Source: Xanthomonas hydrangeae (GTDB taxonomy: Bacteria > Pseudomonadota > Gammaproteobacteria > Xanthomonadales > Xanthomonadaceae). Taken from it: a stretch of DNA of 64,000 bases. The DNA is taken from contig LR990730.1 in the NCBI GenBank assembly GCA_905142475.1, positions 806,001 to 870,000 on the forward strand. Direction: 5' to 3'. Below the pieces are notes generated by a model. It made no database searches and was not told the origin of the DNA. It saw nothing but the letters and a program-made list of their open reading frames with translations. A program made the position numbers and the translations under genes. Shown here piece by piece: positions 9,584-64,000 of the stretch. Each line of letters begins with the position of its first letter. Positions within the stretch are counted from its first letter, which is position 1.

Positions 9584-9658
9584 GTCGGGAGGGCGGCTAA
9601 TACAACACCCGCAAGGGGAATACGCCCGCCGGCTGTGTGCGGTTTCGAACCTCCCGAC
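9584..9658 (+). ncRNA. Structured RNA resembling the phage C4 antisense RNA class
   Basis: A long-range perfect stem (GTCGGGAGG 9584-9592 with CCTCCCGAC 9650-9658) encloses GC-rich inner hairpins (the CCCGCAAGGGG region and GGCGG/CCGCC). The right side carries GGTTTCGAACCTCCC, which I associate with C4-type antisense RNAs of P1/P4-like phages and their relatives. It lies about 50 nt upstream of a small gene pair ending in a SymE-type toxin gene, so it is placed to control that pair. The class assignment is from memory and no covariance model was run. Confidence 0.5.
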
Positions 9659-9709
9659 ATCCCGTCGCCGTTGGCGGCGGTTCTTGGGTTGTTCCAGGAG
9701 GGCGTTGCC

Positions 9710-62430: not shown

Positions 62431-62650
62431 AATCGGCGAGGACACCGCACCAGGACGTTGGTCGGTTGCCGGATATAAACCTGCCTGTTGCTCGGCTTGC
62501 GATGAGAAGATTTTCGTTCGGAGGCGACGTTATCCGACTAACGCACATCATGCATTGCTTGCACCAGGCACACCGACCATCTCGACGGGTCCTTGCCCGT
62601 CCACCGTCGCGGGACCTTACGCGGCATGGATGCCGCGTAAGAGCCTTATC

Positions 62651-62830
62651 TGTTCGGATTCTGGCAGTTTGGGCGTCGAGAGCCGGCGTGGGCCACCGTG
62701 AGAGCCTGGATCGTTACCGATCGTCGTGTAGCTGGGTGCCCACGCCGGTTTCTCCCCTGTATCGCCCGAACGGTTGCCAGAGTGGCCACTCGTAGACGTA
62801 AGGCTGGGCAGGCAGGGGAGCTCTCGACCC
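62651..62830 (+). ncRNA. Candidate IS110 bridge RNA with readable target and donor guides
   Basis: Two stem-loops are visible. Stem 1, CCGGCGTGGGC (62683-62693) with GCCCACGCCGG (62738-62748), encloses a target-type loop. Its GTGAGAGCCT (62698-62707) matches the left target flank GTAAGAGCCT (62637-62646) except for one wobble-compatible base, and its CGTGTAG (62725-62731) is the exact complement of the right flank CTACACG (63878-63884). Stem 2, CTCCCCTG (62752-62759) with CAGGGGAG (62813-62820), encloses a donor-type loop. Its GGTTGC (62772-62777) resembles the element's right end AGTTGC, and its GTAAG (62798-62802) pairs with the left end CTTAT apart from one wobble. This is the published organisation of IS110 bridge RNAs. 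Transcript ends are not visible. Confidence 0.75.
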
Positions 62831-62841
62831 TTCAAGCCTAA

Positions 62842-63777
<936 letters not shown>

Positions 63778-64000
63778 GTGACCATGCTCTCGATGGATCC
63801 GCCGGCTGCTGACCAGCGGCCGGCGTTCCCGTGCCAGGCTTCCACAACGGTCTGAACCCCCTCCAACAACACAGTTGCTACACGGACGTACTTGCGGCGT
63901 GTCCCGCGATGGTGGGCGGGCAAGGGCCTTGCAGCCAAGCCGCAGATCATCCGCTCTAAAGCTGGAAGCATCCACACTGTTCAATCCCCTTCCAGCCGCT

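Follow-up and report, generated by a model that had tools for sequence, protein, structure and literature searches.

Structure of the element and its recombinase

The window (the whole stretch of 64,000 nucleotides that was analyzed) carries close to its right-hand end an IS110-type element with the following features:

62617–62646, + strand: left target half, consisting of the palindromic repeat TTACGCGGCATGGATGCCGCGTAA, GAGC and the core CT (62645–62646); assigned from empty repeats
62647–63877, + strand: IS110-type element, 1231 bp; limits from nine copies and empty sites
62647–62853, + strand: left non-coding end (LE), 207 nt; nine copies 99.7–100% identical
62854–63777, + strand: IS110 recombinase, 307 aa; PF01548 (DEDD_Tnp_IS110) and PF02371 (Transposase_20)
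63778–63877, + strand: right non-coding end (RE), 100 nt; terminal letters ACAGTTG
63878–63885, + strand: core CT and right target ACACGG; assigned from empty sites and the flanks of copies

The genome (5.58 Mb) was found to carry nine copies of the element, including that of the window, with an identity of 99.7–100%, and a tenth, diverged relative with an identity of 68%. In empty repeats elsewhere in the genome, position 62646 is fused to position 63878 with an overlap of two bases. This overlap is the core CT, which is present at 62645–62646 and again at 63878–63879. The exact limits of the element, left undefined in a preliminary description of this DNA, could thereby be fixed from the nine copies and the empty sites. 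As is typical for the IS110 family, a short core is common to target and element, and there is no long target duplication.

The recombinase aligns with the solved transposases of IS621 (8wt6, E = 1.5e-32) and ISCro4 (9t56, E = 2.4e-31). The D, E, D, D and S columns are preserved in the alignment with IS621, and besides the equivalents of D105 and S241 we take the remaining aligned D, E and D columns to be catalytic. For IS621 itself, D105 and S241 are named as catalytic residues in the relevant part of PMC11208158. A DEDD RuvC-like domain and a serine-bearing C-terminal domain in the recombinase, together with a long non-coding LE upstream of it (207 nt compared to 100 nt for the RE), are found here as in the IS110 bridge-RNA family.

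Target sites and insertion preference

The targets of the element and its relatives were assigned by eye to three classes. Class A comprises the Xanthomonas palindromic repeats GTAAGAGC-CT-ACACGG and variants (core set off by hyphens), class B the sites CTAACGC-CT-GAATTAAGCC, which resemble integron attC sites, and class C a different palindromic repeat, GACTGAAGTCG-CT-CCTACA. Two smaller groups that the script filed under class A each have a separate target: G208 (left target AGATCCCT, guide CAATCCCT) and G231, where the right target CTCTCCCG is matched exactly by its guide (8/8), the left flank being masked. A GTTRGG-type end was detected in 8 of the 11 class B rows with sufficient right flank, and the longest inverted repeats at class B sites measured 6–10 nt. 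By their sequence, the class B sites look attC-like as a group rather than site by site.

A total of 166 uninterrupted sites of the repeat form GCNNNNGAGCCTMCAYGGA were counted in the genome of the window, and the exact form GCGTAAGAGCCTACAYGGA was found at 94 sites. The repeat pattern read backwards gave zero sites in the scan of the same genome. All ten insertions in this genome (L001–L010) lie at the GTAAGAGCCTACAY form, compared to 94 of the 166 empty sites. If insertion among such sites were random, ten out of ten at the exact form would be expected with a probability of ~0.57^10, roughly 0.004.

The bridge RNA of the window copy

Within the LE, the following elements of a bridge RNA were identified:

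62674–62830, + strand: bridge RNA (approximate ends); covarying consensus fold of 39 sequences
62684–62748, + strand: predicted target-binding stem-loop; helix 2 with 14 pairs, 11 of them changed on both sides and 98.9% of the cells paired
62697–62707, + strand: left target guide CGTGAGAGCCT; 10/11 to the left target
62725–62731, + strand: right target guide CGTGTAG; 7/7 complementary to the right target
62765–62808, + strand: predicted donor-binding loop; helices 3 and 4 of the consensus fold
62770–62778, + strand: left donor guide ACGGTTGCC; 7/9 to 63871–63879
62797–62802, + strand: right donor guide CGTAAG; specifies CTTA, the core and element start

The left guide CGTGAGAGCCT is identical to the left target CGTAAGAGCCT (62636–62646) at 10 of 11 letters, and the sole difference, a G for an A, permits a G-T wobble with the bottom strand. 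The right guide is the exact reverse complement of the right target CTACACG (63878–63884). These values agree with the preliminary description, whose counts of 9/10 for the left flank, with a wobble-compatible difference, and 7/7 for the right flank were both recounted as correct. Among 20,000 stretches of the same length taken at random from elsewhere in the window, 0.5% reached 9/10 on the left, 0.6% reached 7/7 on the right and none reached both.

The left donor guide ACGGTTGCC matches the right end of the element and the core (ACAGTTGCT, 63871–63879) at 7 of 9 letters, one of the mismatches being wobble-compatible. The right donor guide CGTAAG fits the first four letters of CTTATC as its complement and departs at base 5. 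The donor-loop matches had been described as weaker yet correctly placed, which holds for both sides (7/9 on the left, CTTA only on the right). The donor guides of the window copy fit worse than those of most relatives. By sequence and architecture, the stretch 62674–62830 is a bridge RNA.

Conserved fold among the relatives

The same stretch is covered by the Rfam family RF02234 (see below). A genome survey with strict filters, which may miss weak matches, identified RF02234 in 49 of 247 genomes drawn from the bacterial family (32 above the cut-off) and in none of 14 controls. Two more distant relatives of the element (L093, L094) had no RF02234 match above the gathering score.

From the RF02234 matches and further recombinase matches, 53 distinct RNAs were aligned, and 39 sequences were picked for the fold (alignment A1), consisting of 37 of the 53 together with L052 and L108. 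Duplicates (L001, L031, L151), one fragment (L058) and RNAs shorter than 120 nt were dropped. No recognisable element start was present in L052, L108, L112, L133 and L134, of which L108 was still used in the donor test. L054 and L055 were left out of the fold, donor and promoter counts and kept in the guide counts; at these two loci, repeat sequence takes over in the 3′ part of the bridge RNA, and no recombinase match was found.

The consensus fold has 29 pairs. The pairs are formed in 96.5% of the cells, compared to 32–51% with the partners slid, a control that leans in their favour since they were predicted from the same alignment on which they were scored. Two-sided (compensatory) changes were found at 16 of the 29 pairs, which was equalled in 4 of 500 shuffles. 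The number of cells with two-sided changes (177, compared to 58.8 after shuffling) and the covariation (0.419 compared to 0.138) were each reached in 0 of 500 shuffles. Further pair types were not in excess of those in the shuffles (36 vs. 33.8; 91 of 500). Most of the covariation signal is held by the target stem, with 11 of its 14 pairs. Examination for a conserved fold thus gave a consensus with compensatory changes across 39 relatives, and as in the IS110 family the conserved RNA carries a target loop and a donor loop.

Two rearrangements of the LE were seen among the relatives. In L103 and L105, a 113-nt duplicate of the LE including part of the bridge RNA lies directly upstream of the full element, with the neighbouring bases masked. 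In L144, the first 16 bases of core and LE are tandemly repeated, as if a CT within the end had served as core.

Guide loops follow targets and element ends

The left guides match their own targets at a mean of 6.28 of 9 positions, compared to 4.72 for shuffled pairs (36 distinct guide/target pairs, without the masked left flanks of G231), and the right guides at 6.50 of 7, compared to 4.07 (18 distinct pairs); neither value was reached in 5000 shuffles. A shift of one base was allowed for own and shuffled pairs alike, since the class C alignment is one base out of register. The poorest left guides are those of class C (5.56/9).

Several changes occur in parallel in guide and target within a class. 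Targets with CTAACAC are combined with TAACAC guides in L040, L099 and L100, CTGAGTTA targets with TAACTCAG guides in L046 and L048, and CTCCA targets with TGGAG guides in L141–L143. There are exceptions: L145 and L148 lie at CTCC sites, yet their guides specify CTAC; L040, L044, L051 and L099 lie at CTGAGTTA sites with guides for CTGAATTA; and L049 and L056 lie at CTAACAC sites with guides for TAACGC (a wobble). In G259, three of the four copies read (L147, L148, L150) are located at variants of the repeat with a poorer fit to the left guide.

The right donor guide follows the start of the element, specifying CTTAT for CTTAT starts and CTTGT for CTTGT starts, with agreement at base 4 for 16 of the 17 distinct combinations. 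In L053, a class B locus with a class C start, base 4 of the donor guide follows the start (G where the class otherwise has A). L108 differs from the others at donor base 5, and its guide agrees there. The donor match is broken by one base within the first five in L039, L049 and L050, at base 5 in L049 and earlier in the other two. The left donor guide ACAGTTG is uninformative in this respect, since both the guide and the right end are nearly invariant.

The matches could also be explained by a protein-guided insertion sequence that inserts into repeats, the agreement of the loops being due to chance or shared ancestry. The relatives do share ancestry and their targets are alike within a class. 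However, when guides and targets were shuffled within classes only, the observed values were equalled in 0 of 5000 (left) and 5 of 5000 (right) shuffles, and guide and partner have changed in parallel in L040, L046, L048, L053, L108 and L141–L143. We give this explanation hardly any credence.

Element limits, core, fold, guides and the co-variation of the guides with targets and ends are observed features of these sequences, and guides that change together with target and donor DNA are a property of the IS110 family. The comparison of guide loops with insertion sites named in the preliminary description showed that the loops of the relatives track their sites, with the exceptions listed above. 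Its link between the RNA and the palindromic-repeat target is strengthened, as guides fit their own flanks across the relatives better than shuffled ones. A natural, sequence-readable bridge RNA, as it had suggested, is supported at the level of sequence by the conserved fold and the guide co-variation. Taken as an IS110-type element with its own bridge RNA, the window element is assigned a probability of about 0.94. This bridge RNA is a further member of an already known kind.

The sX15 family lies on the opposite strand

The bridge-RNA stretch coincides with a catalogued RNA family:

62670–62828, − strand: Rfam RF02234 (sX15), full length; 147.3 bits, gathering score 55

The match to RF02234 (Xanthomonadaceae sRNA sX15) spans all 159 positions and is antisense to the bridge RNA. 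A recombinase match (tblastn with the window protein) was present in 21 of 30 inspected sX15 loci, and the Rfam strand was opposite to it in all 21. The other nine loci are without recombinase match, several of them at contig ends. In the genome of the window, each of the ten sX15 matches lies on the strand opposite to its adjoining recombinase, and the same orientation was found in two named records (L091, L092). Judged by this position and orientation, the sX15 family is the bridge-RNA locus filed on the opposite strand. A further Rfam family, RF02221 (sRNA-Xcc1), was found above the gathering score at positions 9584–9666 of the window (+ strand).

The recognition of the sX15 stretch as an IS110 bridge-RNA locus on the opposite strand is new here. 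No link between sX15 and any insertion sequence was found in the literature searched. The terms sX15, transposase and insertion sequence are absent from the main text of a Xanthomonas sRNA screen (PMC7694677), and neither Rfam nor Xanthomonas occurs in the main text of PMC11208160. The similar name sX4 denotes RNAs described in Xanthomonas campestris pv. vesicatoria, according to the part of PMC6337395 dealing with them. Another literature use of "sX15" together with Xanthomonas apparently refers to a strain and not to an RNA. The accession RF02234 is mentioned in a paper on a Mycolicibacterium. Neither insertion sequences nor RNA-guided recombination appear in the Rfam title of RF02234.

sX15 was reportedly described in X. 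euvesicatoria 85-10. On plasmid pXCV183 of this strain, a solo LE with the RNA was found (L182, 3001–3253). Eight further plasmid records from Xanthomonas, among them a second one of 85-10, carry the same solo copy. The recombinase homology of the solo copies stops after about a dozen codons, and in the four stretches opened (L182–L185) no right-end match was found. In all four, the effector gene xopH (annotated hopD2 in one) is located downstream. From its sequence, the solo plasmid copy reads as a guide RNA left without recombinase.

Candidate junction promoter and proposed mechanism

A candidate promoter hexamer was identified upstream of the bridge RNA:

62665–62670, + strand: candidate −10 of a junction promoter, CAGTTT; 17 nt after TTG-CT-T, in the circle only, weak in this copy

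For IS621, a promoter formed at the circle junction is described in the corresponding parts of PMC11208160 and PMC11208158. The candidate counterpart of the window copy is weak, with 5 of 12 consensus letters (counted by hand), and the junction −35/−10 pair is outside the five best promoter candidates of the window circle. At fixed spacing, only A2 and T6 of the −10 hexamer are preserved in class A (8 of 10 distinct starts). The motif TAnnnT was found at the sense −10 in all 17 distinct class B starts and in all 13 class C starts, there at 16 or 17 nt. The circle junction TTGACT-17 nt-TAnnnT reached 9 of 12 consensus letters in three of ten circles (L118, L124, L128), compared to 6–7 of 12 in their integrated left ends. 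For the remaining seven circles, the best promoter score anywhere was 6–7 of 12. A scan of 62560–62960 for strict consensus promoters and terminators found none.

We infer transcription, RNA binding and circle formation by analogy, with IS621 as the model. Excision by the recombinase at the CT core would release a circle, and the joined ends would form a promoter from which the bridge RNA is transcribed. The first loop of this RNA would bind the palindromic repeat GTAAGAGC-CT-ACACGG on both strands, the second loop would bind the junction of the element ends, and the circle would be inserted by the recombinase at the CT of the repeat. The same locus may also produce sX15 as an antisense RNA that would be able to pair with both the bridge RNA and the recombinase leader.

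Strand of the sX15 transcript

Two readings of sX15 are about equally likely, namely a bridge RNA entered on the wrong strand or a genuine antisense partner of one. For the latter, a candidate promoter hexamer was found on the opposite strand:

62835–62840, − strand: candidate antisense −10, TAGGCT; 6 nt before the sX15 5′ end

Of the 25 distinct flanks of classes A and B, 23 have a TAnnnT motif with varying middle letters exactly 6 nt upstream of the sX15 5′ end, a count that leaves out five flanks of no assigned class and comes from flanks that share ancestry and have the hexamer just before the ribosome-binding site. At other gaps between 0 and 25 nt it occurred in these flanks only once, at gap 7. 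In class C, the antisense TAnnnT was found at gaps of 3–5 nt in 10 of 13 flanks and at 7–8 nt in three. The sX15 limit 62670, taken as a sense start, would fall within the candidate sense −10, and the limit 62828 suits a minus-strand start.

The strand was also examined by wobble pairs. Guide mismatches of the wobble type for the plus vs. the minus strand numbered 17 and 9 on the left (68 other) and 4 and 1 on the right (3 other), and helix pairs predicted from both strands comprised 105 G-U and 67 A-C cells; both tests are weak and their cells are not independent. The tests lean weakly toward the plus strand.

A comparable antisense RNA is described for ISPpu9 of Pseudomonas putida, an IS110 family member according to a passage of PMC11208160. 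In the pertinent part of PMC8450116, Asr9 is a stable antisense RNA of ~180 nt complementary to the recombinase leader and was interpreted, before bridge RNAs were known, as a translation helper. A sense RNA, Ssr9, is placed there just after a joined copy of the two ends of the element, and we infer that Ssr9 is a bridge-RNA gene. Like the window element, ISPpu9 lies in palindromic repeats and has an antisense RNA over the leader, a likeness at the level of description. No work joining Asr9 to bridge RNA or seekRNA was found among the matches listed.

It is conceivable that the conservation of this RNA mainly reflects antisense sX15 as a regulator of the recombinase leader, and that the likeness of the plus strand to a bridge RNA is secondary. 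This would agree with the Rfam strand, which is opposite to the recombinase at every locus showing both, with the TAnnnT 6 nt before the 5′ end and with Asr9 as an RNA of this kind. However, the co-variation of guides with target and donor needs a DNA-guiding function, and the wobble counts and the excess of G-U over A-C cells, weak as these tests are, favour the plus strand. Such a primary antisense role is considered very improbable.

Alternatively, sX15 may simply be a strand error in the record of the bridge RNA, with no antisense RNA at all, which contests only the antisense part of the mechanism. The transcription of the IS621 bridge RNA together with the recombinase, as given in part of PMC11208160, is consistent with this, as are the plus-leaning strand tests and the strict scan, which gave no promoter. 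Against it stand the two sX15 limits, which fit a minus-strand start, and the antisense RNA of ISPpu9, which a northern blot showed at the corresponding position. We regard a wrong strand assignment as a serious possibility that falls somewhat short of even odds. To the same tentative degree, sX15 may be a real, widely conserved antisense partner of the bridge RNA. If it is such a partner, an internal promoter of the integrated element would make an RNA complementary to the guide RNA and the recombinase leader, and the sense guide would be turned on by excision, through the junction promoter.

Comparison with known systems

The system of the window resembles IS621 in the recombinase domains and in the upstream RNA with a target loop followed by a donor loop (relevant part of PMC11208160). 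As there, the left guide reads as the top strand and the right guide as its complement. A CT core and a repetitive palindromic target are further similarities, as far as IS621 is treated in sections of PMC11208160 and PMC11208158. In contrast to IS621, other target and donor sequences are used here, and an outer stem closes the whole RNA.

Target choice is likewise RNA-guided in the seekRNA elements of the IS1111 and IS110 groups, and attC-like sites are also used by the class B relatives. The attC-targeting ISKpn4 and ISPst6 are described in part of PMC11187229 as IS1111-type elements with the seekRNA downstream, whereas the RNA of the class B relatives is upstream. Examples of class B loci at attC-like sites despite an upstream RNA are L037, L040–L042, L044, L046, L048, L049, L051 and L099–L102.

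Together, the relatives show how a single guide-RNA scaffold has been re-aimed in nature at two types of palindromic repeats and at integron attC-like sites. The result also gives a concrete identity to a curated, so far unexplained RNA family of plant-associated bacteria. If sX15 is a real antisense partner, the opposed transcripts would act as a circle-or-integrated switch in many IS110 elements of the Xanthomonadaceae, and Asr9 of ISPpu9, reported when bridge RNAs were still unknown, would be a second case. This raises the testable question of whether bridge RNAs may have dedicated antisense RNAs.
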